NCBI RefSeq assembly: GCF_002368415.1
Contig: NZ_AP018290.1
Span: 5,097,614-5,161,613 of the forward strand
Direction: 5' to 3'
Length of the DNA stretch: 64,000 nt
Source of the DNA: Calothrix sp. NIES-4105
GTDB lineage: Bacteria; Cyanobacteriota; Cyanobacteriia; Cyanobacteriales; Nostocaceae
Part shown: one piece after another, positions 1 through 64,000 of the stretch
How the letters are laid out: each line of letters begins with the position of its first letter
Position numbering within the stretch: the stretch's first letter is position 1
Made by a program: the position numbers and the translations under genes
The notes under the pieces: model-generated
Database searches by the model: none
Seen by the model: only the letters and a program-made list of their open reading frames with translations
What the model was told of the DNA's origin: nothing

Positions 1-272
1 TAGCACGTTATCAGCTTGTGGCAGATTTTGAGCATCAAACCTGCTCCCATATCTAAACTACCTTTAATATCCTGAGTGTAAACCAAGCAATAGGTTCGTA
101 TCCGCCAAATATTTCTTGCAGTTTGAGCTTGCTCAAATTGTACTGACTGAGTAAGTGCGAACTGCTGCATCTACGGTTGCGCTCTTTTAAACCTATGTAA
201 TTCTATGCACAAGTGCTTAAAACCAACAATAGGGAGACTTTGAGCGCGGAGGTCTTTTGAATATGAGGGCTA

Positions 273-1651
273 TCAAGTAGCTGCACCGTACCACCCGTAG
301 GCGACGTTTGCCGTAGCTTGCGGTGCGCTCGTAGAGTTACTCCTTACCTGTTTTTTACCGCCAGAATACCATTTGTGACGATTAAAACCGCCAACAATGT
401 TTATCTTGCGTCCAAACCTTTTCCACGCATCCGGCTTCAAGCAATCCTCTGGTTTCTTAAAGAAAGTTGCATGGTACGCTGGGTTCGCTTTTCTGTTCTA
501 TTCTGCCCGCGCCTAGCTATCACCAATGCCGCAGCGCAACCAGAATTGAGACTATACATTGCCGTATACTTTGTAACCCCTATTACACTAGTATAACTGG
601 CATCGACTTTTAATAATTCAATTCCAAATTTGTTGCAACGCCTTTCAAGCATTTCGTTGAACTTTGAATAAGGCATATTTGAAAGCATCCTTGCATATTT
701 TGCACCCTTTTCTTTCATCGATGCTTTCTTTTTTTCAAAATCTAAATCTTCAATAACTATTGGTACTTGATAAAATTCTGCAAGTCTAACAAGCTCTGCA
801 CAAGCTTTACCAATTATATCTTCTGTTTGGTTAGAGCGTTTATCTTGAACGTTAATTTTAATCGAGCCATGACGTTTTAAATTTCCATGACGGTCTATCA
901 CTGCCCAGTCTACTGAAGCGGGATTAAAATCAATACCCAAAGCACCTTTTTCTAATGATGTAATATTCGGTTTTTTGGGCGCGTCAATTGTTGCATTCAA
1001 ATAATATTTACCAGAGCGGATGACAAAACGATAAGTTACAGGTTGCAAGCTTGCAGTGCGCGATTCTTTTCTAACATTACCTTTTTTATCTTTACGGGTT
1101 ACAGTTTTGATTACAGGTACAATAGCTGATTTTAACCAATCCAAACCATGAGGAAAATTTACACTCCTCATCACTACTTTTTCGCCGTACTTTTGTTTGA
1201 AACACGGAGATACAGTAATAGTCAAAGTTTGTGTTTCAATGTCATATCTGACAAGCTGATTACCAGTAGCAAAAGCTGCCGCACCTTCATAATATATGAT
1301 ATGCGACCGTGCAGAGCGCCAGTCACTAAGCCAATCTCTATGGTCAGCGTAACCGTTTTTTTCTAAACGGAACTGGGCACCAAATAATTTCTTTGTACCA
1401 AAAGCAACGTGATATTTACCTTGCTCGCGGTCAATTTTTAGCTTTATAATTACCGATTCCAGGTGCTGAATTTTATTACGCTTGAAATTAATTGACCGTT
1501 TGAAACGGTGGCAATACTGAATATTATTATTTTTTTCAGCTTTTTTTCGCTTGGCTTCAAGTTTTTTAATGCTGCGTTTTATACCTTGAATTGCTGAATA
1601 GTTATCATACACCTGCACCATATTTCTGGTAACTAACGCGCTCGTATCCAA
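273..1651 (-). pseudogene. TnpB/OrfB-like RuvC nuclease, frameshifted near the C-terminus
   Basis: The open frame gives 404 residues and ends at 437. It has an IS605 OrfB/TnpB-type RuvC fold: GIDFNPASVDWAVID carries the first catalytic Asp and VIEDLDFEK the Glu. The third motif reads SGCAAALVIARRG, without the usual Asp, as I recall for a TnpB-related cyanobacterial branch. One added base in the G run at 481-483 joins the frame to a family-typical tail (FFKKPEDCLKPDAWKRF, then INIVGGFNRHKWYS) that stops at 273, so I read a one-base deletion. No zinc-finger CxxC pairs and no TnpA partner are visible. The start is unclear: TTG at 1651 is used here, but the frame stays open upstream with family-like sequence. 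Confidence 0.8.
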
Positions 1652-2046
1652 CCATAATACTAGAAATACTTGGCTTTCAATTATGCCATGTGAATTACTC
1701 TCAAGAGGCGCTCCGGTAGGGTGATGAATCGTTTGAAGCTTTCAAAAAGGCTTTAACCATGACCGCAGGTGCTCGGATTGCAGGGTCGTAAATTAATTAT
1801 ACCGTTTATTTATTAGTTGTTTGTCACAAATAAATATGTTGTGGGCACTACTCGCTCAGACACCGCGTCAGAAATAGCAGTTTGCGTTGGTGTATATCAA
1901 GTAAATTGATACAGCACTTAAGCGCACGCATGGCATAAAGAGAAGCATTGCCAATTGCTCGTGGGAGTAAACGTACATTAACTGTAAACTATATGGCGAG
2001 TAAATTCCATCACAAAAATATGCGATGGCGTGCGTGGGGAGCTAAC
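1652..2046. other. Intergenic region between the TnpB relic and the GHL10 gene
   Basis: No convincing gene. An in-frame extension of the GHL10 gene begins at a TTG at 1948, but it lacks a ribosome site and its residues look non-coding. The segment contains no GGCGCC and probably includes the left part of the transposon relic plus the promoter of the downstream gene. Confidence 0.5.
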
Positions 2047-3528
2047 ATGTCATTCAATCTTCGGAAATTAGGAATGAGTTTTCAGTGGCGGTTGAAACTG
2101 AAGTCAGTTGTGCCAATTTTATTTTTACTGACGTTTATCGGGGTAATAGTATTGGATACTTTTGCTCCTGCGTTGGCGCAATTTCCGGCGCCGCAGCCAA
2201 TTCCACCAATACCACAGTTTCCTGGGCAGCAACCAGTTCCACAACCGCAATTTCCTCAACCCGTTCCATTACCAGTTCCATTACCTCAATCTCCACAGTT
2301 TCCACCTGCTGAAACTGACGGATTACCGCAACCTGTACCACAACCTGTACCACAACCTGTACCACAACCTGTACCACAACCTGTACCACAACCTGTACCG
2401 CAACCTGTACCGCAACCACAACCAGTTCCTCAACCTGTACGACGTGTTCAACGACCAGGACAGGAAATTCGTGGTGTGTGGATGACTAATAATGACCTTG
2501 ATATATTAAGGGACAGGACTAAAGTTGGCGAAGCTATGGACAAGCTGCGGCGGTTAAACTTTAATACGGTTTACCCTGTTGTTTGGAATTCGGGGTATGT
2601 GATGTACCCTAGTGCTGTTGCACAACGCGCGGAAATTCAGCCATTTGTATATAAAGGTACAGATGGTCATGATATTATTGCGGATGTAATCAATCAAGCA
2701 CATCGTCGCGGTTTACTAGCAATTCCCTGGTTTGAGTTTGGTTTCATGGCGCCTGAAACTTCAGAGTTAGCTTTAAATCATCCTGAATGGCTAACGCGAA
2801 AACGTGATGGAAGCCAAACAAGTATTAGCGCAGCAGGTGAGGTAGCATGGCTAAACCCCTTTCATCCCGAAGTTCAAAGATTTATTAGTGACCTGGTGTT
2901 AGAAATCGTGACTAAATACGATGCAGATGGTATTCAGTTCGATGACCACATGAGTTTACCGCGAGAATTTGGTTACGACAGATATACAGTATCTTTGTAC
3001 ACTCAAGAAACTGGCAATCCTCCTCCAGCTAATCATCAAGACCAAGCGTGGATGCGTTGGCGCGCGGATAAAATTACGGCTTTTATGTTGCAACTAAACC
3101 AAGCTGTCAAAGCACGCAAACCAAACGTTATTTTCTCAGTTTCTCCAAATTACTACGACTTCGCCTACAAATTCCAACTCCAAGACTGGTTAAACTGGGT
3201 ACGGTTAAATATTGTCGATGAATTAGTAATGCAAGTCTATCGTGACGATTTAAATTCATTTACTGCCAAACTTACCCGTCCAGAAATCTTAGAAACACAA
3301 CAACTAAATATACCAACGGGTATCGGTATTATGGCAGGTTTGCGAACGCGCCGAATACCAATACAGCAAATTAAGTCACAAGTCTTTGCCGCAAAGCAAC
3401 GCGGTTTAGGTGTTGCCTTTTTCTACTATGAAAGTTTATGGGATACTGGCCCCGAAGACCCTGGTCAACGACAACAAGGTTTTCAAGCAATTTTCCCATC
3501 TCCAGCACTGCGCGCGAGGGCTGATTAA
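2047..3528 (+). CDS. Secreted GHL10 (DUF187-type) glycosidase-like protein with Pro-rich linker
   Basis: The ATG at 2047 follows GGGGAG at 2037-2042, giving about 493 residues. A basic N-terminus and hydrophobic stretch (VVPILFLLTFIGVIVLDTFA) end in ALAQ, a likely signal peptidase site. A proline-rich linker (PQPV repeats, about residues 45-135) leads to a GHL10 domain that begins EIRGVWMTNNDLDIL and contains WNSGYVMYP, IPWFEFGF, ADGIQFDDH and FSVSPNYYDF. The D-D pair in GIQFDDH is a candidate for the catalytic acids of this TIM-barrel family. The role is probably cell-envelope or exopolysaccharide glycan hydrolysis; the substrate is unknown. A paralogue without signal peptide or linker lies at 48076-49212. 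Confidence 0.85.
   Translation: MSFNLRKLGMSFQWRLKLKSVVPILFLLTFIGVIVLDTFAPALAQFPAPQPIPPIPQFPGQQPVPQPQFPQPVPLPVPLPQSPQFPPAETDGLPQPVPQPVPQPVPQPVPQPVPQPVPQPVPQPQPVPQPVRRVQRPGQEIRGVWMTNNDLDILRDRTKVGEAMDKLRRLNFNTVYPVVWNSGYVMYPSAVAQRAEIQPFVYKGTDGHDIIADVINQAHRRGLLAIPWFEFGFMAPETSELALNHPEWLTRKRDGSQTSISAAGEVAWLNPFHPEVQRFISDLVLEIVTKYDADGIQFDDHMSLPREFGYDRYTVSLYTQETGNPPPANHQDQAWMRWRADKITAFMLQLNQAVKARKPNVIFSVSPNYYDFAYKFQLQDWLNWVRLNIVDELVMQVYRDDLNSFTAKLTRPEILETQQLNIPTGIGIMAGLRTRRIPIQQIKSQVFAAKQRGLGVAFFYYESLWDTGPEDPGQRQQGFQAIFPSPALRARAD
2329..2412 (+). repeat. 12-bp tandem repeat, seven units, encoding PQPV
   Basis: Seven consecutive units of CAACCTGTACCA (the last two end in CCG) encode QPVP repeats in the linker of the GHL10 protein. 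The near identity of the units suggests recent slippage, so length variation between strains is likely. Confidence 0.9.
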
Positions 3529-10484: not shown

Positions 10485-10622
10485 AAGTTCAGGTTTGAGA
10501 TAGGCGCCTTTCCTCAGATTACTGTTGATTTAAAGAAGATGAGAATCTTTGTTTGGCTTACCCGCAGGAATAAACATCTATTTTATTGTTAAATAACTGA
10601 TATTAACGATACAGAAGTACAA

Positions 10623-11104
10623 ATGTCTTTAAGCATTCAACAGTTAGATGAAATCAACGCGCGTGCTTGCGCTCTCTGGCATTATGAGGCGCGACTAAAC
10701 TTCTATAATTTCATCCCGATGAAATCGAACAAAACGTACAATACTTTCTTGACCCTCGAAACAACTTCTACGGTATATTTGAGAAGCAGGAATTTATTGG
10801 CTTTTGTAGTTTTGGAGAAGACGGGCAAGTTGATGGAGGTAATTACAGCGCGCTTGCTCTCGATATTGGAATGGGTATTCGTCCTGATTTGACAGGGCTT
10901 TTGTCGTGGGAATTATTACGTATCAGCAGTTTTAAATTTCGCTTTAAGAGAATTTAATGCTCCTCTGTTTCGGCTTGAGTTGCAGCGTTTAATCAGCGCG
11001 CGCTTCGGGTATGGAGTAAGGCAGGTTTTCGTCCTATTGATACTTTTGAACACCAGCCACAGGGTGAAACTTTTGTAATTTTAGTACGAGAAGCCCAAAC
11101 TTAG
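10623..11104 (+). pseudogene. GNAT acetyltransferase, multiple frameshifts
   Basis: Reading starts MSLSIQQLDEINARACALWH at 10623. The sequence then moves to another frame (HPDEIEQNVQYFLDPRNNFY, then GIFEKQEFIGFCSFGEDGQV and ALALDIGMGIRPDLTG, the acetyl-CoA-binding strand). It shifts again (VLNFALREFNAPLFRLEL) and ends RVWSKAGFRPIDTFEHQ, the typical GNAT C-terminus, stopping at 11104. At least three frame changes are needed, so this is a clear pseudogene. It is part of a run of decayed genes from 9.4 to 15.1 kb. Confidence 0.8.
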
Positions 11105-11227
11105 CAGGGCATTATTAAAAGTTATTGCTTGTATAAACGTGCTTAACTAGTGTTAGAATATACATTACAATAACTGAGCGAATAGCTATGTTATGAGCGG
11201 CTGTGTTCTACAAATATATTATTATCG

Positions 11228-12046
11228 ATGATTACAAAGCTGACATCTCAACAAGAAGAATCTATTATATCTTATCAGCAAAAATGGAGAGCGATTAGTT
11301 TATCTACAGAGCGTATAAATCGCGAGAGAGTATTGGGTGTACTAGAAGATGTATACAATTTTTACCCTGAAAGCTTTATAATGCCTGAAGTCACTTTTTT
11401 TGATAGTCCGTATGCTGCTTTTAGTGCTGAGTTAAGACTTACAACAGCTAACTTGAATGGTCTTAGTGATGATGAAATTATTAATCAAGTAGCTAGCTTA
11501 CAAACTATTAGTGGCGAAGGTCAACCAAGAACTGATTTATGGTGGGATTTACATGCGGAATTATATCCAAGCGGAATGAATCCTCAAATTAGTCTACAAA
11601 TCTGGGAAGTTTTAGATGAAAATCTTACGGATAAAGTAGGTCGTAAAATTCATGAGCAATTATGGAAAGTTTTATGGGATTGGCTTTGCGACAGGTTAAT
11701 TAGTGACTTGAAAGATTGCCCTGACGCTTTTGGTCGTTTTTACGATAACTTTATTTATCCTGATTCGGAATGGGCAACCTACGCTGGCTTATTCGACTAT
11801 TGCATCAATGAATTAGGTTGTAAGCATGAGCAGGAGCAATGGCGGGTTTACAGAGATTTATGTACTGAGTGTGGTTGGTGGTTTATACCAATGCCTGCAC
11901 ATTACGTAATTTGTGATAGACCTACAAAATTACTGCTTGACGATGACGGCAAACTCCATGCAGATGGAGAAACTGCAATTCAGTTTGCTGATGGTTTCGG
12001 TTTATATGCTCGACACGGTAAAGTTGATTCAATTTGTTTTCCCTAA
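11228..12046 (+). CDS. DUF6745-like protein, probably C-terminally truncated
   Basis: 272 residues. It begins MITKLTSQQEESIISYQQKW and contains EVTFFDSPYAAFSAE, features I associate with DUF6745 proteins that are scattered through cyanobacterial and actinobacterial genomes. Family members usually continue after the segment ADGFGLYARHG; here a stop follows 7 residues later, and the next 90 bases look like further broken sequence. It may be a truncated or decaying gene. No catalytic motif recognised. It lies between an acetyltransferase relic and a restriction-type remnant, in DNA without GGCGCC. Confidence 0.6.
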   Translation: MITKLTSQQEESIISYQQKWRAISLSTERINRERVLGVLEDVYNFYPESFIMPEVTFFDSPYAAFSAELRLTTANLNGLSDDEIINQVASLQTISGEGQPRTDLWWDLHAELYPSGMNPQISLQIWEVLDENLTDKVGRKIHEQLWKVLWDWLCDRLISDLKDCPDAFGRFYDNFIYPDSEWATYAGLFDYCINELGCKHEQEQWRVYRDLCTECGWWFIPMPAHYVICDRPTKLLLDDDGKLHADGETAIQFADGFGLYARHGKVDSICFP

Positions 12047-12155
12047 AGTTAATTTACCGTATCTTATTGTTAAACTTTGGGTAAGATATTTATGTGCGCG
12101 GTGCCTATTAAAGCGACTATCTGTACCGTACTTTCGTTAAGTGAAGCCCCATTAG

Positions 12156-13604
12156 CTACTTTTTAATCTGACGGTGTTGCTTATAATAGTCAAGAGCTTG
12201 TTCTAAACGTTCGACAATATCTATTGCATCTTGAATTTCTCGTCTGGGTGCAATCACGAGTTGAGCATGACTAAGGGGATTCATAATACAACTGCGGTAA
12301 AGTTCAACATGGAATACTAAATCTTCGTCAATATATTTTGGAGTGCCATCTGAGTTCTTAGCATTCTTGATGGGTTCCCAGAAGTCATTGGTGTCTAGCT
12401 CTTTTGGTTTTTCGCGATACCTGACAGCAATATTCAAGTTTTCGCAAAACCATTTAATTTTAACCTCAAAAGCAGTGCGTAAATAAATTGCAGCTGCTTT
12501 GTGGTCATTCGCTTGCAAATAAAATTTGGCTTTGTCAAGGTATGTTTTATTTTCAACTAGGATTGGCATTTCATAATCGCTACCATGCCCAACATAAAGT
12601 TCGATAGTTTTCCAAGAAGGAAAATGTCGCTTCAGGATGTCGTACCATTCTTTATCGTAAGTCATCAAGAAGATTTGGTAATCCAGAAATAAGTCTTTTA
12701 GAACGTCAATGATAGGTAAACGATTAGACATATCTAACCCAATCAACACGTCATCAAGAACTAACACTTTTAGCGCGCTACTGGGGTTGATTAACAAAGC
12801 AGCTAAGTAAATGGTAAGCGAGATTGCTGATAACTTAGCTTCATTAAGAAACTGATGAGCTAAAGGAAACTTAATGTTAAGGAAGTCAACGCGCAAAATA
12901 ACTTCATTACCTTTTAAACATTTGTTTTCTAAATCGTAAGTGACTCCCTGAAAGTCAAAATCGAGAAGGACAGGATAACCAAAGCGTTTGAGAATATTTG
13001 CTGCTTCGTTTTTGAGTTGATTTAGTATACTACTCAGACCATAATTAAAGTTATTAAGACTTTTTTCAAGCTCTTGTATTTTACGAGTATGTTTTCCACT
13101 GCGAGGTAGATTTTGCTTTATTTCTGCCCATTCTTCACTAAAACGTTTGCCTGTAAAAGTATTTATACTATTGCTGAGGATAGTTTTTGTTAATAGGTCA
13201 AACAAGTCTACTTCGCTATCCTTTATGCGAGGGAAATAAATTTCCAATAAAGATTTATAATCAAGAGTGCCCTTTGTTTTTGAAGCTTCAATGATAACTG
13301 GAGCATGTGTTTCGCGGGTAATATCTGACCATTCGTAAGTAGTTTCAGCGTCGCGTTCGCCAGCGCGCATAGAAATTTTAACATAGCCGCCATCAGCATC
13401 AGTTACAAAAAAATTGCGGTGCTGAGAAAATTGGATGTCTCGCAGATGAGAATCCATAAATAGTTCAATTGCTTTGAGCAGCGAAGATTTACCACTGCCA
13501 TTTTCACCATAAATAAGTAAATTTCTACATTTCTTGCCTAAGTCGATATTATGTTCCCCATAGAACGCTCGAAAGTTCTTTAGCTCGATTTTCGTAATTT
13601 TCAT
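12156..13604 (-). CDS. SMC/RecF-type ATPase with possible HEPN-like C-terminal domain
   Basis: 482 residues. The N-terminus MKITKIELKNFRAFYGEHNI plus Walker A YGENGSGKSS (about residue 35) is typical of ABC-type AAA_23/RecF-like ATPases. A short central helical part with no long coiled coil is followed by the signature region AKLSAISLTIYLAALL and Walker B KVLVLDDVLIGLD. The last 140 residues form a separate helical domain (YLRTAFEVKIKWFCENLN; then YRSCIMNPLSHAQLV) that resembles DUF4145/HEPN-type domains, possibly a nuclease or tRNase. The gene overlaps the restriction-type fragment by 56 bases and is probably cotranscribed with it. A defence role is likely (inference). Confidence 0.75.
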   Translation of the reverse strand: MKITKIELKNFRAFYGEHNIDLGKKCRNLLIYGENGSGKSSLLKAIELFMDSHLRDIQFSQHRNFFVTDADGGYVKISMRAGERDAETTYEWSDITRETHAPVIIEASKTKGTLDYKSLLEIYFPRIKDSEVDLFDLLTKTILSNSINTFTGKRFSEEWAEIKQNLPRSGKHTRKIQELEKSLNNFNYGLSSILNQLKNEAANILKRFGYPVLLDFDFQGVTYDLENKCLKGNEVILRVDFLNIKFPLAHQFLNEAKLSAISLTIYLAALLINPSSALKVLVLDDVLIGLDMSNRLPIIDVLKDLFLDYQIFLMTYDKEWYDILKRHFPSWKTIELYVGHGSDYEMPILVENKTYLDKAKFYLQANDHKAAAIYLRTAFEVKIKWFCENLNIAVRYREKPKELDTNDFWEPIKNAKNSDGTPKYIDEDLVFHVELYRSCIMNPLSHAQLVIAPRREIQDAIDIVERLEQALDYYKQHRQIKK

Positions 13605-14640: not shown

Positions 14641-14866
14641 TATTGCTAGCTGTTATTGGGTTGCCACTTTTCACCAACACTATCGCTGCTAACTTACTAG
14701 TGGGACTGCAAGCCCTGATGGATGAATTAAGCCGCTTATTTTTATGTTATCCAACCAATACGGGGTTATCAAGGAAGCTTAAAACAGATTCTGAAAATTA
14801 TAAGCGTTTACATTACTGGCGCCCATCATCAGCCTTATACTTACATATGGTTATTTGGTGATATAT
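14641..14866. other. Unassigned sequence between two nuclease remnants
   Basis: A plus-strand frame from 14643 to 14861 (beginning MLAVIGLPLFTNTIAANLLV) has no recognisable family and no ribosome site. I treat it as decayed or non-coding DNA. Confidence 0.4.
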
Positions 14867-43767: not shown

Positions 43768-43769
43768 TG

Positions 43770-49275: not shown

Positions 49276-49683
49276 ATGCAACAAATAATAGAAACATTAA
49301 ACAAAGACCTACCTAAATTGTTTGAAAAAGACATAACCTACGACATCTACACCCAAGACATCCTATTCCAAGACCCAGTAAACAAATTCAAAAGTAAACC
49401 TAATTACCGTATAGTTTACTGGACACTGCGATTCCACGCGCGCTTATTTTTCACCGATATTCACTTCGACCTACACAACATCGCACCATCCGACGAAAAA
49501 ACCATCATCGCAAACTGGACAGTACGCGGAACCGTGCGTCTACCCTGGAAACCCAAATTATACTTCAACGGTTACTCAACATACAAACTTAATCAAAATG
49601 GCTTAATATACGAACATGTGGATACATGGGATAGAAAGCCAAGTGAGATTTTAAAGCAATTTTTCCAAAAACCTACTTCTTGA
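49276..49683 (+). CDS. DUF2358 protein
   Basis: 135 residues with LFEKDITYDIYTQDILFQDP, YRIVYWTLRFHARLFFTDIH and ANWTVRGTVRLPWKPKLYFN, then YEHVDTWDRKPSEILKQFF. This is the NTF2-like DUF2358 family found in cyanobacteria and plants, function unknown. The 3' end overlaps the convergent kinase gene by 11 bases. Confidence 0.88.
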   Translation: MQQIIETLNKDLPKLFEKDITYDIYTQDILFQDPVNKFKSKPNYRIVYWTLRFHARLFFTDIHFDLHNIAPSDEKTIIANWTVRGTVRLPWKPKLYFNGYSTYKLNQNGLIYEHVDTWDRKPSEILKQFFQKPTS

Positions 49684-50953
49684 GTGTAAATATAAAACTA
49701 GTTCCAACACCAATCTCAGATTCAACCCAAATTTTACCATCATGTAATTCAACAATCTTCTTAACTAACGCTAGCCCAACACCTGTACTATCAGAATCTT
49801 GTAAACTAGTTAATTTTTGAAAAAGTTGAAAAATTTTCTCAAAATGTTGTGGTTCTATTCCGATACCATTGTCAGCCACACTAAACCTGTAATATTCTTG
49901 TTCATCGACACAAGTAATCTTAACCAAACCTTCTGGCTTATCTATAAATTTTATTGCATTACTGATAAGATTTTGAAAAAGCTGTCCAATCCTGGTTTTA
50001 TCGCAATTAATAGTTGGTAATTGATTAGAAATCTCTATTTTAATATTTTCGGGTATATTTAAAACCTCAATTAACTCTGATACGACTTGATTTAAATCTA
50101 CATGTTTCTTTTCAACTTTCGCGCGTCCGACTCGTGAATATTGTAAAATATCGTCAATTAATTTATGTAGTCGTTTAACTCGACTAATCATTAAATTAAC
50201 CATTTTTTTGCCTTCTTCGTCAAACTCTTCACCATAGTCAGCTAATAACCATTCCGATAGTGAAGTAATGCCTCGTAACGGTGCCTTTAAATCGTGCGAT
50301 ACTACATAAGCAAAATCGTTTAACTCTTGATTTGCGCTTCTAAGCTCCTTTAAAATACCCACCATTTTATCCTGCGACTGCTGACGCTCTTTGATTTCTT
50401 GCTGAAGCTGTGCGTTTGCTGACTCCCACTCACCAGTACGAGTTTGGACAATTTCTTCTAAATGGTCTTTGTATTTACGTAACTCGGACTCTACACGCTT
50501 ACGTTCTATAATTTCAATCATCAAAGCTTGGTTAGCAGTTTCAAGCTGTGCAGGACTTGGCAGAGCTAAAGCTTTTGGAACTAAAGGTATCAAAGTTAAA
50601 GCTGTATAAAACGATATTAATGCTGTAACTGCTTTTAAGGCGCCTGCGAACCAGTAGTCAGGATGCCATAATGTCCATACCTCGACAATATGAGTTGTAC
50701 CACACGAAATAATAAAGGCGCCGAACAGTAAAAAAATACTTTTAAACGGAATATCCACACGCTTGCGGATAAAATACACAAGCGTTAGGGGTATTGAATA
50801 GTAAGAAAGCGCAATTAATACATCTGATAGTATATGCAGCGATACTAATTCCGGTTTCCATAGGTAACAATGCCCATGCGGGATAAAATTACCTGAGTAG
50901 AAAAAATTCTGCAAGCTTTGTAAGTCCACGTTAGTATCTCCACCTTTTAACAT
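49673..50953 (-). CDS. Sensor kinase with ethylene-receptor-like membrane domain
   Basis: 426 residues. Three membrane helices (about residues 37-60, 70-90, 103-125) form an ETR1-type domain; the Cu(I) ligands of the ethylene receptor, Cys and His four residues later, are present in SCGTTHIVEVWTLWHPDYW. A coiled coil (about 135-205) leads to the H-box NDFAYVVSHDLKAPLRGITS, N-box NLISNAIKFIDKP, G1 VADNGIGIEP and G2 STGVGLALVKKIVELH. Synechocystis has a related ethylene/light receptor (SynEtr1). No phytochrome-like GAF lies between. A lipoprotein gene lies 47 bases upstream in the same orientation. Confidence 0.9.
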   Translation of the reverse strand: MLKGGDTNVDLQSLQNFFYSGNFIPHGHCYLWKPELVSLHILSDVLIALSYYSIPLTLVYFIRKRVDIPFKSIFLLFGAFIISCGTTHIVEVWTLWHPDYWFAGALKAVTALISFYTALTLIPLVPKALALPSPAQLETANQALMIEIIERKRVESELRKYKDHLEEIVQTRTGEWESANAQLQQEIKERQQSQDKMVGILKELRSANQELNDFAYVVSHDLKAPLRGITSLSEWLLADYGEEFDEEGKKMVNLMISRVKRLHKLIDDILQYSRVGRAKVEKKHVDLNQVVSELIEVLNIPENIKIEISNQLPTINCDKTRIGQLFQNLISNAIKFIDKPEGLVKITCVDEQEYYRFSVADNGIGIEPQHFEKIFQLFQKLTSLQDSDSTGVGLALVKKIVELHDGKIWVESEIGVGTSFIFTLKK

Positions 50954-51000
50954 GGGAATACACCGTTAAATAACTAAAGCAAATCTACCTTTGGAAATAA

Positions 51001-51813
51001 TTATTTCACATCTAGCCAAAAATCAGCCGTGTCAAGCTTGCCATTGCGGTTAAACTGTAGCCAAAGCTTATAAGTTCCTTTAGTTGGGAAACTCGATATA
51101 AAACTAACTTGACCGTCGGGTGAGTTATAAAGTGGAGTTGCTGGTATATAGTCTGCACTTTTAAGAGGTGATGAACTGCGGACTATAAATAAACGTGCTT
51201 TCTCGTTCGTCTTTTGATTTGGATACGGTCGTAAGTCTTTTACTGGTTGATTATTTTTCGTATCCTGCAAGTTAAAACTTAAGTTTACCTGTTGTCCTGA
51301 TTGGAAATTTGAGTTACGCACCGACAGTAATACTAAAGTATTATTTACGGTTTTTGTATTGCTAAATTTTTCAAGTTCGGTAGGTAAAGGAACATTGCCA
51401 GGAATCTTGATTTTTTGTATTGTCACTTGTTTATTTGACCCAGCCGAGTAATCGCTGAATACAGTATAGTTCCCAGGCGCCGGGAAATCGGGATTAATTT
51501 CAAACTTGCCTGCTTTATATATTGGTGTTTCGTGCTGAAAATACCGCAAGTCATCGCTAACTACTACCAAATGCATTTGTTTATTGGATGAGTCGTCTGT
51601 AGTAGGAGTTTTTGGCTGATCTTGAACCTTAACAGCTAAAGGTACTGCCTTGGTTGATTTTACTTCTTTAACTTGCTCTGGTGTAGGGGTTGATGTTGGT
51701 AACGTTTGATTATTGCTTGTACTGTCTTGCGTTAAAACCTTCTGTGATGATGAACAACCCTGAGTCAGTAACAATATCCCTAATATACTAATAATTCCTA
51801 AAACTGAATTCAT
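51001..51813 (-). CDS. Lipoprotein with repeated beta-domains
   Basis: 270 residues. Lipobox ILLLTQGCSSSQ, so it is lipid-anchored. Two similar beta modules end in FPAPGNYTVFSDYSAGSNKQ and FPTKGTYKLWLQFNRNGKLD, then TADFWLDVK, resembling Ig-like domains seen in copper-related or efflux-associated lipoproteins. The tract PTSTPTPEQ is a linker. Orientation and spacing suggest cotranscription with the ethylene-receptor-like kinase, so it may bind the kinase's metal or ligand; this is inference. Confidence 0.7.
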   Translation of the reverse strand: MNSVLGIISILGILLLTQGCSSSQKVLTQDSTSNNQTLPTSTPTPEQVKEVKSTKAVPLAVKVQDQPKTPTTDDSSNKQMHLVVVSDDLRYFQHETPIYKAGKFEINPDFPAPGNYTVFSDYSAGSNKQVTIQKIKIPGNVPLPTELEKFSNTKTVNNTLVLLSVRNSNFQSGQQVNLSFNLQDTKNNQPVKDLRPYPNQKTNEKARLFIVRSSSPLKSADYIPATPLYNSPDGQVSFISSFPTKGTYKLWLQFNRNGKLDTADFWLDVK

Positions 51814-52013
51814 AATTAATTACTTATGCCGTATGTCTAAAATAGAACATGCAACATCATTACACACGAATCTTAAAATCGTCACCTATTTACTTAGTTA
51901 AGGTCGCACGCTTTTGTTACTGAGACATCCAATAGTGTAAAATGTATCAAATATAAGGAGACATTTTCATAGATTTGTAGCACAATTTTACCTAACGTGT
52001 ATCGTTTGTCTTT

Positions 52014-52859
52014 ATGGATATCTCAACCAGTTTAGATGAACTTAACTTAAAATTAAGCTCTGTCTTGGGAGATTTACCGCTTTGGGATATAAGTTTAGAA
52101 CTTAGCGGTCTAGGCAATAGCTTAATTGAATTATTTGACAAAGAACCTTTAATGCCTGGGGTAGTCTTGACTAAAAATCATGACTATATTGGTATGATTT
52201 CAAGGCGCCGTTTTTTTGAGTTTATGAGTCGTCCCTATAGTTTAGGCTTATTTAACGAACGCGCAATTGACAATTTGTACGAATTTCTGAAATCAGATAT
52301 TTTGGTAATGGGCGCCGATATCACTATCGTTGAAGCAACACAACAAGCACTGTCCAGAAATCCTCAATTTGTTTATGAACCTATTGTTGTTGCTGGTGTT
52401 GCTGGAAATCAACTGCTTGATATTCAACAGCTACTTCTAGCAAATTCAAAAATACATACGCTAACACTTTTACAACTTGAAGAAGCGACTAACCAAGCTC
52501 AACTAGCTGAAACTAACTTACACGAAAGTAAACAAAGGCATTTGGAATTATTACAAAAGGAAAGAGCTATTGCATTAGAAGAAGTATTTTTGAATGTTCA
52601 ACGCGAAATAACGAGTCCAGCAAAACTTATTGTTGGCAACTTAGTTCACGCAAGTCGCTGTATTCAACAATTAATTCAAATAATAAGTCTTTATCAGAAG
52701 TATTATCCACAACCCGTAGAAGAAATTCAAACTGTAGCCCAGAAGATAAAATTCAACTCGTTAAGTACCGAACTTCCCCAGTTATTAAACACTATCAAAG
52801 TACACGTTAAAAAAATTCAAACATTTAGTGACTCTCTGAGTGGAAAGAAACGCTCGTAG
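52014..52859 (+). CDS. Degenerate histidine-kinase-like protein with CBS-like N-terminus
   Basis: 281 residues. The N-terminal part (EPLMPGVVLTKNHDYIGMIS, RRRFFEFMSRPYSLGLFN) resembles CBS-type sensor modules of cyanobacterial kinases. A coiled coil (165-205) leads to a dimerisation-like domain REITSPAKLIVGNLVHASRC, which in active relatives reads HEINNPVNFIYGNLxHA. The phospho-accepting His is replaced by Arg and the ATPase domain is missing. It ends naturally at SLSGKKRS. It could regulate a true kinase or be a vestige. Confidence 0.7.
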   Translation: MDISTSLDELNLKLSSVLGDLPLWDISLELSGLGNSLIELFDKEPLMPGVVLTKNHDYIGMISRRRFFEFMSRPYSLGLFNERAIDNLYEFLKSDILVMGADITIVEATQQALSRNPQFVYEPIVVAGVAGNQLLDIQQLLLANSKIHTLTLLQLEEATNQAQLAETNLHESKQRHLELLQKERAIALEEVFLNVQREITSPAKLIVGNLVHASRCIQQLIQIISLYQKYYPQPVEEIQTVAQKIKFNSLSTELPQLLNTIKVHVKKIQTFSDSLSGKKRS

Positions 52860-52908
52860 TCACAAACGCAAAGAGCGTTTCCCCCCAGCAAAAAGAATTT
52901 ATTAAATT

Positions 52909-53142
52909 TTACGCTGCAACTTCTTCAGTTTGGCAATCAAATACAAGCATGAAATTAGCATCAGGAGTTACCCGAAGTAATAGCTGCATGTGTCCATCTG
53001 CATCTGATCGACTACGGAACCGTGCGACTATTTCACGCTTCATATCTGGAAGCATACGAGCTATTGCCCAAGAGTTGAGCCGCTTTTTATAACTTACAGG
53101 TTGGTTTTGCTCGGAATAGCTGGTGCGAGTGTCTTGTGCCAT
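52909..53142 (-). CDS. Conserved small protein
   Basis: The start is taken at the ATG 53142 (MAQDTRTSYSEQ), 77 residues. VSYKKRLNSWAIARMLPDMK, then REIVARFRSRSDADGHMQLL, is soluble with a basic middle. I know only that proteins with such sequence are widespread in cyanobacteria. Function is not recognised. Confidence 0.65.
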   Translation of the reverse strand: MAQDTRTSYSEQNQPVSYKKRLNSWAIARMLPDMKREIVARFRSRSDADGHMQLLLRVTPDANFMLVFDCQTEEVAA

Positions 53143-53340
53143 GATGATATTACACAGATTTATTTGGTCAACTTTGTCAGCAAGTCCCATATACATGTGA
53201 GGATTGCTGACGTTTTTTTATCTAAGCTGTCACTTGAATAGCACACCAAAAATTGAACGTCAATGATTTTGGGAAACAATTCTTAAAAATCGTTTCCCAG
53301 AGCCGAAATTAAGTTTTTGCCAAATGTATACGTCTACACA

Positions 53341-53392
53341 TCCTCCTCCCCTCCCCTCCCCCCTCCGCTCCCCTCCCCTCCCCCCCCCCCTC
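53341..53392 (+). repeat. Polypyrimidine C/T tract
   Basis: A 52-base run with only C and T except one G (units like CCCCTCCCCT, ending in twelve C). It lies in the gap between two minus-strand genes. The minus strand is all purine with G runs, so it could form G-quadruplex or triplex DNA. Confidence 0.9.
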
Positions 53393-53429
53393 GTTATAAA
53401 GTACTTTAGTACTTTAAAAAACTTATAAA

Positions 53430-53774
53430 CTATTTACTAAACAACATATCAAACTCCGCTTGCAAAGCTTGAATCTCCGCAACTCTGGTAACGATTAAAT
53501 TGTCCTTACCCGCATCAACCAAACGCGACTTCCAATAGCAAATACTTTCAGAGTTATTCATCCAAAAATCAATAACAGTTTTAACCACTTCGTCCATTTC
53601 CCAAGATTCTTTGGTGGGCACAGATTCCACCGTTTCAATAAACGCATCAAGCGTACAAGTCGGCGCCCCCAAATACTCTATACCTTTAGGTTGTGCTTCT
53701 ATCAAAGATTTCTGTTGATGATTAAAAAAGTGTAAAACTGGAGATACTCCAACGATATTAAAAGCATATTTCAT
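53430..53774 (-). CDS. Hypothetical protein
   Basis: 114 residues: MKYAFNIVGVSPVLHFFNHQ, then KGIEYLGAPTCTLDAFIETV and DEVVKTVIDFWMNNSESICY. Soluble, alpha/beta. No family recognised. Its coding looks genuine because of an even codon pattern and a GGAGGA ribosome site before the start (reverse complement of TCCTCC at 53780). Confidence 0.6.
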   Translation of the reverse strand: MKYAFNIVGVSPVLHFFNHQQKSLIEAQPKGIEYLGAPTCTLDAFIETVESVPTKESWEMDEVVKTVIDFWMNNSESICYWKSRLVDAGKDNLIVTRVAEIQALQAEFDMLFSK

Positions 53775-54094
53775 CTGAATGTCCTCCCAGTAATTTATTT
53801 AAACAAGTTAATTTGAACGAAATTTTGCGATTAGTCAATCAAAAATTACTTACCTAAAGAAATAAGTAATTAGACATAGATATTTACTGCTACTGACTCT
53901 AAAATTGCTGAAACCAATCTAGTTTTAACTAGCAGTCAATCACTGCGAGTGAATCACGATTAGTAGATAGAAAATTAGCAGTTAGTAGAAGTGAGTGCTA
54001 ATAGTTATTGGTGCCTTTATCTTAAATTATTAGATATTTTCAATAAATGCAAATTGCTATATAATAATTTTAATAATTTGTTTATATTGCAAGC

Positions 54095-54988
54095 GTGACA
54101 AACTACCAGGGTGAGATTGCAGCGTTGGTTGCAGCAGTGTTGTGGGCTTTCGCGTCGGTTGTGTATGGACGTGTCGGCGCCCATATCCCACCACTGCACT
54201 TAAATTTAATCAAGGGAATAATTGCAATTATTCTGCTTTTGATTACAATAGCCGCCACAGGAGAACTCTCTTTAGTAATAGCTCCTATACCCTTATGCTT
54301 ACTTTTGTTGAGTGGGGTAATTGGTATTGGACTAGGAGATACTGCATTTCTGGCAGGAATAAACGCTTTGGGTGCGCGTCGGTTATTGCTTCTCGAAACG
54401 CTGGCGCCACCAATGACAGCTGTATTTGCCTTAATATTTTTGCAGGAACGATTAAATGCAAATGCTTGGTGCGGTGTACTTTTAACCATCTTGGGAGTTG
54501 CTTGGGTAATTAGCGAACGTACCGAAAAGGAAATTACTTCTCATTTATCCTTACGCGGAGTCGTTTTAGGGTTACTTGCTGCAGTCGCCAATGCCCTTGG
54601 CGCCGTTCTTTCACGTGCAGCACTCGCAAACACAAATATTAACCCCTTGGTCGCAGCTTTACTACGCTTAAGCGCAGCTACATTTTTCTTATTGCCTTTA
54701 ACTGCATGGCAGCCAAAGTTCAAGACTTCCATACTTAGTTACTCCAAACAACCGCGTGTAGTCGCCGCTACCTGCTTTGCTGCATTTTGCGGAACTTATT
54801 TAGGCATTTGGCTACAACAGACAGCAATTAAACTGGCGCCAGTAGGAATTGCGTCAACATTATTACAAACAAGTCCGATATTTATATTACCGCTAGCTTT
54901 GTTGACAGGTGAAAAGGTAAGTTTAAGAGCAACCGCAGGAGTTGTAGTTGCAATCGCTGGAATTGCATTATTGTTCTATTTTAGATAA
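54095..54988 (+). CDS. DMT/EamA family transporter
   Basis: 297 residues from a GTG start. Ten membrane helices in two EamA halves: GEIAALVAAVLWAFASVVYG and LRGVVLGLLAAVANALGAVL begin each; LLETLAPPMTAVFALIFLQE and ASTLLQTSPIFILPLALLTG, then GEKVSLRATAGVVVAIAGIA, are the conserved motifs. It probably exports an amino acid or metabolite. Not linked to neighbours. Confidence 0.92.
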   Translation: MTNYQGEIAALVAAVLWAFASVVYGRVGAHIPPLHLNLIKGIIAIILLLITIAATGELSLVIAPIPLCLLLLSGVIGIGLGDTAFLAGINALGARRLLLLETLAPPMTAVFALIFLQERLNANAWCGVLLTILGVAWVISERTEKEITSHLSLRGVVLGLLAAVANALGAVLSRAALANTNINPLVAALLRLSAATFFLLPLTAWQPKFKTSILSYSKQPRVVAATCFAAFCGTYLGIWLQQTAIKLAPVGIASTLLQTSPIFILPLALLTGEKVSLRATAGVVVAIAGIALLFYFR

Positions 54989-55012
54989 CTTTATTTTATC
55001 CAAGCACTTTTA

Positions 55013-55939
55013 TTACTTGACATGATAGTCCTGCCACAGCAAGCTTTTTAGCTGATGTTTAGTAATTTTTTTTGAAAGCGAGAGCAAATATTCTTGTGGA
55101 AGTGAATAATGATTAAAAAACGGATATTTAGGTAAGCGTGACGTGTAATCAAAGAAAAGTGCCAACCTATCTGATGCGACTGGTATCTTGCCACGATGAA
55201 AAATACTGCCTGTTGCAGCAAATATAACTGTACCAACAACACCCAAACAAGATTTACAATCCGATAAAGATGCCGTATGTTGCATCACAGAGTCTTGAAT
55301 ATAACCTTGTTTGTACTTAAGTGTTTGCACTAGTTTTTGTGTCACAGCCATAGGGATATACTGAAACGGACCTTGTTGTTCATTAACATCATGTAAGTAG
55401 ATTATTGCTTTAAGTACCTGTCGGTCTTCAGTATCCATATGCCATAAACGAGACTTTCGCTGCACATTATTAGCTATGTCTCTACGTAAATAAGCTCCAT
55501 GATATGCAACTGGAAGACCGAAATAAGTTTCTGCAATATTGAGTATGCGTCTTTCTAGTCCCCAAAGAAAAATCTCTGGATACTCCATCATCTGCTCATT
55601 TGTAGCATGAACTACATATTCATTCCTTTTCACAGCACATGGAATTAGTGGCATTATTTTTTTTGTTGCTGCGAGCATATTTGACGAGGAAGCAATTACT
55701 AATTCTTCCAATGAAGTAATCGCCACTCCTTCGTTTTTCAGAGCTTCTACTAACTTTAAGTCCACAGGAGATAGTATAGGCAGGTTAATAAGATGTTGTT
55801 GTAAAGCTTCCTGATAGACACATTCACCGCGTTTTTGTATCGAAGGTATAGTGTGTATATGTTTCAGAACTTGGTTATGGATTTTTTTGATCAAGTTCAC
55901 AGTTTTTATTTCTAATTGGCTAATTTTAAGCTTTTTCAT
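55013..55939 (-). CDS. Putative 2-oxoglutarate/Fe(II) dioxygenase (phytanoyl-CoA type)
   Basis: 308 residues. SRLWHMDTEDRQVLKAIIYL supplies His-x-Asp, then VNEQQGPFQYIP; the distal His and Arg are in GSIFHRGKIPVASDRLALFF, followed by DYTSR. This order and spacing fit the double-stranded beta-helix of PhyH-like dioxygenases. The N-terminal 100 residues are helical and have no match I know. The substrate is unknown; such enzymes often tailor natural products. AT-rich surroundings lack GGCGCC. Confidence 0.75.
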   Translation of the reverse strand: MKKLKISQLEIKTVNLIKKIHNQVLKHIHTIPSIQKRGECVYQEALQQHLINLPILSPVDLKLVEALKNEGVAITSLEELVIASSSNMLAATKKIMPLIPCAVKRNEYVVHATNEQMMEYPEIFLWGLERRILNIAETYFGLPVAYHGAYLRRDIANNVQRKSRLWHMDTEDRQVLKAIIYLHDVNEQQGPFQYIPMAVTQKLVQTLKYKQGYIQDSVMQHTASLSDCKSCLGVVGTVIFAATGSIFHRGKIPVASDRLALFFDYTSRLPKYPFFNHYSLPQEYLLSLSKKITKHQLKSLLWQDYHVK

Positions 55940-56269
55940 TGTAAGTAGTCTTATTAAATTTTTCCTAATCCTTAATAATTACTTTACTTAATACTTCATC
56001 ATTTCTTCATTACATTTACTGAACAAGTATATTGCTTTATACAATCTATATATTTTATTAACAAAATATACTAACTAATTATTTTTTCATACAAAAGTAT
56101 TATCAATTTGTTTTTTTAAACATTGTGTATAAAATAGAACTAATAATTTGATGCATCCTGCACGCTTAGATGTCGATTGGATAGTAATATTTTTAATTAT
56201 TGGAAAAATGGTCTTACTTGCTGTAGAACTATGTGTTGTAGTGATAATTACATTAAGGAGTGACTAGGT
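55940..56269. other. Divergent intergenic region, very AT-rich
   Basis: No gene seen. It holds the promoters of the dioxygenase and nuclease-like genes; the ribosome site TAAGGAG lies at 56254-56260 before the start at 56270. Confidence 0.55.
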
Positions 56270-57133
56270 ATGCCACTGATTTTAATTCAGGGTAAGTATA
56301 AAGTACTATCAACAGCCCCAGATGGTGACTCAATCCGTTTTTATCCCAATAATCCAGAATTGTGGAAAAAATTATCTACAAAAGTGCGCCCAAATAATTT
56401 TGGTGGCGCCCAGTTACGGTTAGATGCAATAGACGCACTAGAAACTCATTTTTCGCCGAGGGGGGGCATAGGAGTGCAGCATCAACCATTAAAGTATGCT
56501 CATGGTGCAGCGTCCGAACTGCTAAGTTATTTAGGATTTAAGGATATAACGCGCGGTAAGAGTGAGAAAATAACCTCGATTACGCCAGACGAAGTGCCAG
56601 GTTTCATATTGACTAGGTTTGCAGATACCTATGGTCGGGCTGTTGCGTTTGTATTTAAGGGAGAAATAAAACAAGAAGATGGTAGTGAGGTATTTTTAGA
56701 CAAATCACTATTACACAAGAGTGCAAATTACCATTTATTAAGTGAAGGACTTGCTTACCCGACTTTTTACTCAAAGTTGTATCCTGATGTCCGAAAAGAG
56801 TTGACTATAGCTACCGAAAAGGCACGTAAAGAATCAAAAGCTTTATGGAGTGAAGATAAAACTAATACAGGTTTTTCTGTAGAGAGCTTAAAAACTATTA
56901 CCGATGATGTAGTAATTTTACCTAAACTTTTCCGGCGCCTGTTAAGTTATCTAGCGATTAACGATGATAGTGTAGCGCTTGATGGATTTTCTAAATATTT
57001 AGATTCAAACGATGACAAAATTATAATCCTGCCTGACGGTCACGTCACAGGCTTTGATTTCGTCGTTAAAGTAGAAGGGCAGAAAATTAAGATGACACAG
57101 CAACCTGAAGATATTGTGTTTATTGAAAAATAA
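56270..57133 (+). CDS. Staphylococcal-nuclease-like (SNase/TNase) protein
   Basis: 287 residues, preceded by AAGGAG. The N-terminal half has the SNase OB-fold pattern: VLSTAPDGDSIRFYPN (D-G-D-S for the calcium site), AQLRLDAIDALETHF (R-L-x-x-I-D), TRFADTYGRAVAFVF (Y-G-R) and NYHLLSEGLAYPTFY. The catalytic Arg-Glu-Arg order is thus largely kept. The C-terminal 90 residues (TDDVVILPKLFRRLLSYLAI; IIILPDGHVTGFDFVVKVEG) are an extra domain. No signal peptide, so intracellular unless exported otherwise. Confidence 0.78.
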   Translation: MPLILIQGKYKVLSTAPDGDSIRFYPNNPELWKKLSTKVRPNNFGGAQLRLDAIDALETHFSPRGGIGVQHQPLKYAHGAASELLSYLGFKDITRGKSEKITSITPDEVPGFILTRFADTYGRAVAFVFKGEIKQEDGSEVFLDKSLLHKSANYHLLSEGLAYPTFYSKLYPDVRKELTIATEKARKESKALWSEDKTNTGFSVESLKTITDDVVILPKLFRRLLSYLAINDDSVALDGFSKYLDSNDDKIIILPDGHVTGFDFVVKVEGQKIKMTQQPEDIVFIEK

Positions 57134-57135
57134 AG

Positions 57136-57267
57136 CTAGTGCTTCATGTCATAAATAATGATGAGTTGGGTACGTAGTTGGGCTTTAGCCCTCTAGAAAT
57201 GTCAATACCTTTTTACGCTCTTTGCGCTACTACGTACCTATTAAAATCAATGACATAGAGTACTACT
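57136..57267. repeat. ACTAGT-type palindromic element, copy C
   Basis: Starts CTAGTGCTTCATGTCATAA and ends AATGACATAGAGTACTACT. The inner stem GGGTACGTAGT / ACTACGTACC is specific to this copy. It is related to the elements at 27931 and 28046. A further hairpin ACTACTGGTT / AACCAGTAGT follows at 57261-57285. Confidence 0.7.
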
Positions 57268-57539
57268 GGTTCGCTTAACCAGTAGTACCACTTCTACTGG
57301 CACCGATAGTCCATGTCAGTTACATCCGTTTATCATCTATTGCCAGCGAATGCTAAGTTATAACTTAAACGTCAACTTGAATTTATGGGCGCCTGTAATT
57401 TAAGTATTTAGATATTTAACTATCTAGAACTTAATAAATATCGGCGCCTGTTATAGTTATAAATATTCAACTTAGAAGCGTGTAATAAATCACCTATTAA
57501 ATGGGAAATAAGTAATAATCCCTAATTCCTAAAACCTTG

Positions 57540-57568
57540 GTAGAGACGCGATTAAATCGCGTCTCTAC
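57540..57568. repeat. GTAGAGACGCG palindrome at a gene 3' end
   Basis: Arms GTAGAGACGCGATT / AATCGCGTCTCTAC with one central A. Two more GCGTCTC pieces follow (57570-57591), up to the stop of the kinase gene. Likely terminator; same family as 19009. Confidence 0.75.
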
Positions 57569-57591
57569 TTGCGTCTCAACTTGCGTCTCTA

Positions 57592-59358
57592 CTAATTGTC
57601 AGCAGAAGGACTATCTGTAGCTGTAGAACTACGTTCTTGCGACTGTTGAGTTGGGACAACAACATCCGAACGTTCAGATGATTTGGGTGCAGGTACAGTT
57701 GGCACTACTACAGAACCAGATGAATTTGACGGTGTGCTTTGCGATTTATTATTATTTGGTGATGTTTTAGCACGAGAATCACGCACTGTTCGTAATCTAT
57801 CTACTAGAGATGGACTTGGTGGGCTTGATGATGTACTTGAGTTAGAACCATTTGCACCACTGGAATTATTAGTGTTAGTGCCAGTACTTTCAGTGTTAGT
57901 ACGTTTTGGTGTGCTGTCGCTATCCGCAGCGCTGCCACTACTATTGTTGTTATTGTTGTTATAGTTTCTACGTCTTGTTGTAGTTGTATTGTTATCAGAA
58001 TTATCTGAGTTATCAGTTGAGCGATTTCTCGAATTTCTATTATTTGTGTTGGAATTATTATCGTCGTTATAAACACGGCGCCGTCTGCGTCGTACTGGAG
58101 TTGAGACAGGCGCCTCATCACGATTTGATGCCTTTTCTGAATTTGATGCTGCTTCGCTACTGGGGGATGGAGTTATTGGAGTTGGAGTTAAAGTTGGTGT
58201 GGTTGTATTAGATGCGGGGAAAATACCGCTTGATTGTTCTACTATCGGCTGTTGTGCCTTGTTACTCGCAGAATTTGAGGCAATCCGTATAGCACTAAAA
58301 CCTGCCGCAGCAGCTAGCATTGCAACCCCTGTACCGATAAATACTTTTGGCTTCAGTATTTTATCAGCAATAGCTTTAATAGCTTTGTCTTTATCTTGTT
58401 TTTCTTGTTTTTCTTGTAGTAATGGTTCTTGTGTGCCTAATTGCGTTACTGCAACAGAATTTAGATCAATATTAGATGGCTGTTGACTTGACAAATCTAT
58501 TGTTTGTACTGCATAAGTTGGCACGGGTTGCGGATAAGGACTACCAGTTGATGTAGGCAGTAAATTTAACCATTCAGCAACACTCGTCGGTCGAAATCTA
58601 GCATCAACAGCCATACCACGCATTATAGCTTGGTTAACAGCAGCACTTAGATGCGGTTGCAGTTCGCGTGGAGAAGGCATTTTCTCACGGTCACGTAATA
58701 ATGCTGGCATCGGAACAGTTGCCGTCAGCAATGTGTAAAGCGTTGCTGCTAACCCATAAACATCCGTTGCAGGTGTGCGGGCAGCTTGCGATAAATATTG
58801 TTCGATTGGAGAATATCCCTCAGAAACCATCCCCGTATGCGTTTGCCTCACTCCGCTATTAAATTCGCGCGCGATGCCAAAGTCAATAAGCACTACAGAT
58901 TGAGTACTGGAGCGAAGAATAATATTATCGGGCTTGATATCGCGGTGTAACAACCCGTTTTGATGGACTACTTCTAAAGCTGCCCCAACTTGGCGAATAT
59001 AATGAATAGCAGTTGCCTCATTTAAAGGAACTCCTGGAATTACATAAGCTTCTCCCAATGTTTCACCAGGAATATACTCCATCACCATGTATGGCAATGC
59101 CTCCTCGACAAAAAAGTCGCTAACCCGGACAATATTAGGGTGAACACAAGTTGCTAACCGTCGAGCTTCATCTTGGAATTGCTTCTCGAATTTAGCAAAA
59201 TCAGGATGCTGTCGCAGCTTTTCATTCAGGGTTTTAATCACCACCACCTGGTGAAGGTAATGATGAGTCGCTTTAAAGGTTATCCCAAAGCCACCCCGAC
59301 CAATCTCGTGATCAAGAGTATATTTGCCACCCTGCAAGGTTGTACCAGCAACTACCAT
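57592..59358 (-). CDS. Serine/threonine protein kinase with TM and low-complexity tail
   Basis: 588 residues. Hanks-type kinase domain (residues 10-270): [17 protein letters not shown] with the ATP Lys, [36 protein letters not shown] and [15 protein letters not shown] membrane helix (about 340-358, [19 protein letters not shown]) separates it from a Ser/Asn/Thr-rich tail of 200 residues, probably extracytoplasmic. Such kinases regulate stress or differentiation responses in filamentous cyanobacteria; the target is unknown. Confidence 0.93.
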
Positions 59359-59641
59359 AGCGATTTTAGATTTGAGGTTTGCTTTTTGAATTCGTCAGTT
59401 GTTAGATTTATTTGATTGTAGATGACCCACAGCTATTCACCTTGTTCTTAAGTACGAAATTTCAAATCCGTAACTCAAGACAAAAGCACACGCACCCTAA
59501 TTATGATCTTTTAATTAGGAAAATAGGGATCAAAAAGTAACAATATAGCACGATTTAATTTTTTTTACTGACTACACCCAAACAATCACCCTAAAACGCT
59601 TTCACTAAATTGATTTAGTAACACGCATTTAAATCTAGATT

Positions 59642-63848: not shown

Positions 63849-63873
63849 ATCACTTCTCATATTTTGCCTCTAG

Positions 63874-63904
63874 AAACCCGACTTATGTAAGTAGTCGGGT
63901 TTTT
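63874..63904 (+). terminator. Rho-independent terminator of the P-type ATPase
   Basis: AAACCCGACT and AGTCGGGTTTTT form a strong GC stem with a T run, 25 bases after the stop codon. Confidence 0.85.
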
Positions 63905-64000
63905 AATGCTTGATGTTATTCTTCATTCAAAATCATGCTTATCCTTGTCTTTATCTTTATTTTTTAGCCCCAGTATCAAAGGTGTCACAGCCGTAATCAA

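Follow-up and report, generated by a model that had tools for sequence, protein, structure and literature searches.

The whole stretch of DNA analysed here, a window of 64,000 bases (GC 0.393) from the genome of Calothrix sp. NIES-4105, contains 111 copies of the hexamer GGCGCC, i.e. one per 577 bases, and no copy of the highly iterated palindrome HIP1 (GCGATCGC). GGCGCC is an alternate highly iterated palindrome (HIP). This description is real and already known in kind: set beside the published HIP variants, as an earlier note on this DNA had suggested, the word turns out to be the alternate HIP of Calothrix PCC 7103, a strain of the same genus, and was also reported in 19 kb of Calothrix D253 (Elhai 2015, PMC4390886). 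No further paper on GGCGCC as a HIP was found among the matches listed in the literature searches. As far as the papers go, the persistence of the word throughout a genus, its conservation at orthologous sites and the signature of wear within it are new. The best explanation as a whole, held tentatively and a little short of an even chance, is that GGCGCC is an alternate HIP methylated by a solitary C5-methyltransferase (M2) and maintained mainly because the methylated word is selected for.

The count in the window exceeds the expectation of Markov models of orders 0 to 4: 3.7 copies from base composition, 5.8 at order 1 or 2, 16.5 at order 3 and 59 at order 4, the last two being high because the words used for training are themselves inflated by GGCGCC. 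In 100 dinucleotide-preserving shuffles of the window the mean was 5.53 (standard deviation 2.50, maximum 15). The whole genome (12.04 Mb in 8 contigs) has 18,131 copies (1,506 per Mb) and 7 copies of the reversed word. The figures of the earlier note (about 110 copies, one per 580 bases, about 4 expected) agree with these counts. Smaller contigs, one of them an annotated plasmid, also bear the word, at 1.2-3.5 per kb in the seven stretches read, two of which overlap. Alternate HIPs have been characterized as GC-rich, overrepresented palindromes with about 500-2500 copies per Mb, occurring in genomes that have little or no HIP1 (PMC4390886). GGCGCC corresponds to this in density and in excess (111 against 5.5 in the window shuffles), and HIP1 is low, as detailed below.

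Open reading frames (ORFs) of at least 100 amino acids, picked by length with no annotation used, make up 80% of the window and hold 97 of the 111 copies; the other 14 fall outside them. Spacing in the window is compatible with random placement (Kolmogorov-Smirnov p = 0.80). The flanks show no consensus across 3,214 copies from seven genomes, and a dispersed repeat family was rejected on this ground. The copies are therefore those of a genome-wide word, lying in genes and between them with variable flanks, as the earlier note had it. Composition or codon use could also make the word common, since GGC GCC encodes Gly-Ala, and 51 of the 97 coding copies are in this frame. However, the remaining 46 are in other frames and further copies lie outside ORFs, other GC-only hexamers are rare (GCCGGC 1, GGGCCC 1, CCGCGG 0) and 210 relatives from the same family have no GGCGCC excess. 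These observations refute the composition and codon explanation, which is left with practically no probability. Five of the seven other GC-only palindromes number 0 or 1 in the window; CGCGCG, with 43 copies, is in excess, and GCGCGC, with 19, lies slightly above low-order models. CGCGCG/GCGCGC is a second group-specific word: 984 copies of CGCGCG were counted in 2,038 kb of the seven genomes of the genus and 11 in 536 kb of outgroups. It is densest in the genome of the window and its flanks are without consensus.

The family sample comprised 217 genomes, 7 of the window's genus and 210 others. The seven are that of the window (G000), Calothrix PCC 7103 (G061), PCC 7716 (G065), Dulcicalothrix desertica PCC 7102 (G060), the metagenome-assembled genomes C42_A2020_038 (G063) and FI2-JRJ7 (G064), and G062. 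All seven are dense in GGCGCC, with 7,475-20,380 copies or 1.15-1.71 per kb (every 600 to 900 letters), and the trait is therefore genus-wide among them, not sporadic. The other 210 genomes contain 0-1,053 copies, at most 0.111 per kb. For the phylum, 386 genomes were drawn, 343 of them outside the family, and judged by eye. Outside the family high GGCGCC counts mostly accompany high counts of the reversed word; G422 may be an exception (2,493 against 38 reversed). The GGCGCC richness of G288 was put down to composition because its GC is 0.54-0.57 in the three stretches read.

HIP1 is scarce in the genus. The earlier claim that it is absent from the window is correct (17 sites with at most one mismatch were found, against 10.98 ± 3.06 in shuffles), and no normal density exists elsewhere in the genome, which has 125 copies against 75 of the reversed word. 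All seven genomes have 31-163 copies each, and the other 210 have 30 to 8,803. Four family genomes of other genera have fewer than 1,000 (G182 30, G194 535, G191 574, G184 990), and none of these four gained GGCGCC (15, 326, 1 and 3 copies in the same order). Among the first 50 HIP1 places listed in NIES-4105, 17 lie within 379-384 kb and 867-913 kb of contig C1; these stretches are perhaps DNA imported from HIP1-bearing cyanobacteria.

In PCC 7103 a GATC endonuclease was considered the likely cause of HIP1 loss (PMC4390886). In 464 kb of NIES-4105 including the window, GATC occurs 201 times against 1,095 expected (0.18 of expectation). In the same 464 kb GGCC is at 0.10 of expectation, and TGCGCA (109 expected), GCATGC (103), GTGCAC (79) and CCATGG (60) are missing entirely. 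It looks as if past or present restriction had removed these words. GATC is also nearly gone from the 80 kb read of G194 (4 against 215 expected), one of the low-HIP1 genomes, and no replacement word was found in those 80 kb.

C5-methyltransferase family matches number 17 in the window's genome and 89 in the genus; 83 of the latter were taken for grouping, with six short weak ones left out. Each of the seven genomes has members of three groups, M2, M11 and M12 (the last a fragment in G062). M2 has full-length relatives of 80-90% identity in the other six genomes of the genus. It is found at one syntenic place in six genomes; the G062 copy there is cut by contig ends and a full copy lies elsewhere. 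Its neighbours are, as we take them to be, a gene with SLH-like repeats on one side and a gene for a RuBisCO-like protein on the other. By sequence class it is a C5-methyltransferase with likeness to HaeIII and HhaI, for which NCBIfam names no specificity (best match: dcm superfamily). Relatives of M2 on E. coli and Morganella plasmids adjoin a HindVP endonuclease, and one is annotated as the HindV methylase, with which M2 shares 54.5% identity. The recognition site of HindV is GRCGYC, in accord with the GRCGYC prediction for PCC 7103. Homology and the neighbours of its relatives suggest that M2 is a HindV-type (GRCGYC) 5-methylcytosine (m5C) methyltransferase, a putative specificity. Two GRCGYC methyltransferases were predicted in PCC 7103, where no GGCGCC-specific one was recognisable (PMC4390886).

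The HindVP endonuclease (PF09519) has no match in the seven genomes of the genus and matches in 43 of the 217 of the family, some of them partial or interrupted. M2 in the genus thus belongs with the HindV methyltransferases, the relatives of which stand beside HindVP, but not to a HindV restriction-modification system. Outside the genus 50 family genomes possess a near-full-length M2-type gene; seven with only partial matches (G019, G066, G097, G105, G124, G163, G185) were excluded from this number. HindVP matches, sometimes partial, are found in 37 of the 50, with a median of 5 GGCGCC, and the remaining 13 have none. HIP1 is retained in all of these 13, at no less than 0.33 per kb. In a scan of named genomes, among the best 80 of the M2 relatives listed, HindVP is within the locus in 50 (10 GGCGCC in 801 kb), and the five loci of the genus have 204 GGCGCC in 105 kb.

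Other C5-methyltransferases were also observed. Contigs C2 and C3 of NIES-4105 (395 and 366 kb, a plasmid-like size) have their own paralogues about 61% identical to M2, and in the 12 kb read from each contig GGCGCC has a density of 1.17 and 3.50 per kb, respectively. M1 (L001) has full-length copies in G000, G060 and G062; in G061, G064 and G065 it is shortened or interrupted, and among the G063 matches examined it was not seen. It is perhaps a CGATCG enzyme.

Conservation and loss of GGCGCC were measured on two syntenic loci aligned across the genus. Changes were scored at tip-sites of the five closest genomes, the ancestral state being one that at least two of the remaining four have in common; support from an outgroup was no condition. 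CpG transitions of the inner C occurred at 54 of 452 GGCGCC tip-sites and at 297 of 7,084 other CpGs (odds ratio 3.1, p = 7e-11, the tip-sites being not fully independent), while other changes were fewer at GGCGCC (21/452 vs 665/7,084). Tip by tip the excess is significant only in G061 and G062. Words one change away from GGCGCC were compared between 2,038 kb of the seven genomes and 536 kb of outgroups, with five methyltransferase loci lying inside other stretches left out. Eight of the nine one-off classes are at 0.31-0.58 of their outgroup density, and the sole enriched class is the deamination product GGTGCC/GGCACC (2.54-fold). The wear of the inner C and the enrichment of GGTGCC/GGCACC are what GG(m5C)GCC methylation would leave. 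According to Elhai 2015 (PMC4390886), it is not known of any GRCGYC enzyme which base it methylates, and his model requires the inner C; the word stem "deaminat" is absent from the accessible part of that text.

Inner-C wear amounts to 38 of 191 tip-sites in G061 and G062 and 16 of 261 in the other three tips, a grouping made post hoc, and set against the general CpG rate the difference shows a weak interaction (z = 2.35, p = 0.019). The ratio of GGTGCC plus GGCACC to GGCGCC is 0.26 in G061, 0.24 in G062 and 0.11-0.15 in G000, G060, G064 and G065, but it also reaches 0.26 in G063. Faster wear in G061 and G062 is for these reasons not claimed. An extra or missing HhH-GPD protein was rejected as the cause of lineage differences: two are found in each of the seven genomes.

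Very-short-patch repair of deaminated m5C, which Vsr performs at Dcm sites, would turn GGTGCC into GGCGCC. Most losses are changes of the inner C to T, and the deamination lesion therefore seems to exist. However, its product is enriched, not depleted, and Vsr (PF03852) is found in none of the seven genomes. Vsr repair is thereby largely refuted and must be regarded as highly improbable. The earlier note had proposed as the basis of the word a methyltransferase or a repair system with a different site. The first half of this proposal fits the data, with a putative HindV-type M2 lacking its endonuclease in all seven genomes and with C-to-T change at the inner C; the second found no support among the repair proteins sought (Vsr and HhH-GPD).

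GGCGCC is kept at orthologous places. Of the G000 copies 120/146 (82%) are intact in G065 and of the G065 copies 120/174 in G000, compared with 31,808/78,693 (40%) for all hexamers. The control word CGCGCG, which is CpG-rich and overrepresented, is kept in 20/65 and 20/28 cases, respectively. Toward the deepest branch this excess shrinks, with 28/65 of the G000 copies intact in G063 vs 0.31. Codon positions were then compared where Gly-Ala is kept. From G000 to G065, in-frame GGC GCC retains its last C in 53/56 cases (GCC elsewhere: 67/132) and the C of its GGC codon in 51/56 (GGC elsewhere: 64/139). In the comparison from G065 to G061, retention of the last C is again better (62/66 vs 111/146) and the advantage of the inner C is smaller (54/66 vs 94/138). 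From G062 to G064 the last-C difference is small (25/27 vs 63/72). Conservation, synonymous codon positions included, is thus shown between the main branches and is weak or absent with respect to PCC 7103. The synonymous conservation also agrees with selection of GGCGCC for some other role, as a protein-binding or chromosome-organising site to which the methyltransferase is incidental, and so does the presence of the word on smaller contigs and a plasmid. The m5C-like signature at the inner C and the occurrence of M2 in all seven genomes speak against such a role, and we consider it improbable.

The published model for HIPs is a neutral mismatch-repair ratchet guided by G-m5C (PMC4390886): repair retains mutations that create GmC, and GGCGCC would be a functionless by-product of GRCGYC methylation, accumulating until repair saturates. 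The model names GRCGYC methylation and the inner C, which the signature supports. In addition, one-off neighbours are fewer than in outgroups, and the 13 family genomes with M2, without HindVP and with HIP1 kept all failed to gain GGCGCC. On the other hand, recent gains are few, although 0.025 per one-off site is not low compared with 13 control words (0.002-0.034). Ten of 13 apparent gains were discarded because each needs at least two changes in flanks only 67-80% identical. One-off neighbours outside GRCGYC are nearly as scarce as GRCGYC ones, the scarcest being GACGCC/GGCGTC. The sites were not found to be more evenly spaced than chance in five genomes, contrary to a possible saturation per 1 kb, and no repair component was identified among those looked for. 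The ratchet taken by itself appears rather unlikely, and it is a close second to selection for the methylated word. We lean to selection over biased repair because of the scarcity of non-GRCGYC neighbours and the few recent gains; the two are not separated by these data.

A number of observations weigh against selection for a word methylated by M2. On recent branches wear prevails: GGCGCC was lost at 75 of 452 tip-sites (69 by a single change), and only 3 credible gains were found. Among 121 one-off tip-sites 3 became GGCGCC and 16 became something else. The depletion of neighbours is moderate, as 67 two-off control words have density ratios of 0.37, 0.61 and 0.80 at the 5th, 25th and 50th percentiles, and one of the eight depleted classes lies below the 5th percentile (all are below the 25th). 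Whole-word excess conservation with G061 is absent (100/141 vs 0.68; 98/139 vs 0.70). The presumed range of M2 (GRCGYC) is wider than GGCGCC. The 13 family genomes with M2 but without HindVP have 2-277 GGCGCC (median 94). Outside the genus, 25 of the best 80 loci lack HindVP nearby and carry 7 GGCGCC in 439 kb; 7 of these 25 also have little or no HIP1, so that having M2 while lacking both HindVP and HIP1 does not suffice everywhere. Within the family the excess is found only where HIP1 is gone and M2 is solitary, yet the word, the solitary M2 and the HIP1 loss coincide in one clade and amount to one event.

With selection for the methylated word as the preferred reading, the following course of events may be proposed. 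HIP1 would have been lost in the ancestor of the Calothrix/Dulcicalothrix group because GATC was restricted, the cause that Elhai put forward for PCC 7103 (PMC4390886). A HindV-type C5-methyltransferase without its endonuclease would have stayed as a solitary enzyme; the gene is present in 7/7 genomes and HindVP in 0/7. M2 would methylate the inner cytosine, giving GG(m5C)GCC, as homology and the C-to-T signature suggest. The methylated word would then have multiplied to about 1.5 per kb and assumed the task of methylated HIP1 sites. Between the main branches it is kept at orthologous places although its inner C wears to T. A more general possibility, which we hold with less confidence than the explanation as a whole, is that the HIP word is interchangeable and any dense cytosine-methylated GC palindrome may serve. 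Once HIP1 had been destroyed, a new word would have been written by a solitary methyltransferase of restriction origin and kept by selection genome-wide through the spread of the genus, against its own methylation-driven decay.

The coordinates of the features are collected in Table 1. In the longest GGCGCC-free stretch of the window, one ORF resembles SMC/AAA ATPases and another has a TaqI_C specificity domain. The stretch is perhaps a recent arrival, but gaps as large are compatible with random placement across 223 kb.

Table 1. Positions of the features described (window coordinates unless a contig is named).
Feature	Position	Strand	Remarks
GGCGCC copies, dispersed palindrome, n=111	1..64000; first 2187, last 63749	.	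in ORFs and between ORFs
Longest GGCGCC-free stretch of the window (4.3 kb, GC 0.370, no GATC)	10509..14817	.	
Query stretch for the matching region in six other genomes	39500..59400	.	surroundings are one of the two aligned loci
M2, C5-methyltransferase gene, outside the window	G000:C1:10505801-10506793		

The purpose of HIP1 is an open question, on which a whole genus with HIP1 swapped for another word bears. Alternate HIPs were described as sporadic and not found in clades, and this was used to argue for a special function of HIP1 (PMC4390886). Genus-wide GGCGCC weakens that argument. The genus has a single candidate gene for the writing enzyme, and the balance between wear and retention can be measured in it, which makes the question of whether the word or the methyl mark matters testable in named strains, i.e. 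Calothrix PCC 7103, PCC 7716 and Dulcicalothrix desertica PCC 7102.

Among known systems the closest is the alternate HIP of PCC 7103, which has the same word, nearly absent HIP1, depressed GATC and predicted GRCGYC methyltransferases. As far as the accessible part of that account goes (PMC4390886), the present case differs in covering all seven genomes, in the conservation of orthologous sites, in the inner-C wear signature and in the absence of HindVP. HIP1 itself is likewise a dense, genome-wide, GC-rich palindrome and has been linked to solitary methyltransferases (PMC4390886), but it is a different word and is near background in this genome. M2 resembles the methylase of HindV systems and has relatives adjoining HindVP, whereas HindVP is unmatched in the seven genomes, and GGCGCC is abundant instead of avoided while other GRCGYC words are scarce. 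The Dcm/Vsr system of enterobacteria, as we understand it, shares an m5C deamination hot spot inside the methylated word; in the seven genomes there is no Vsr and the T product accumulates.

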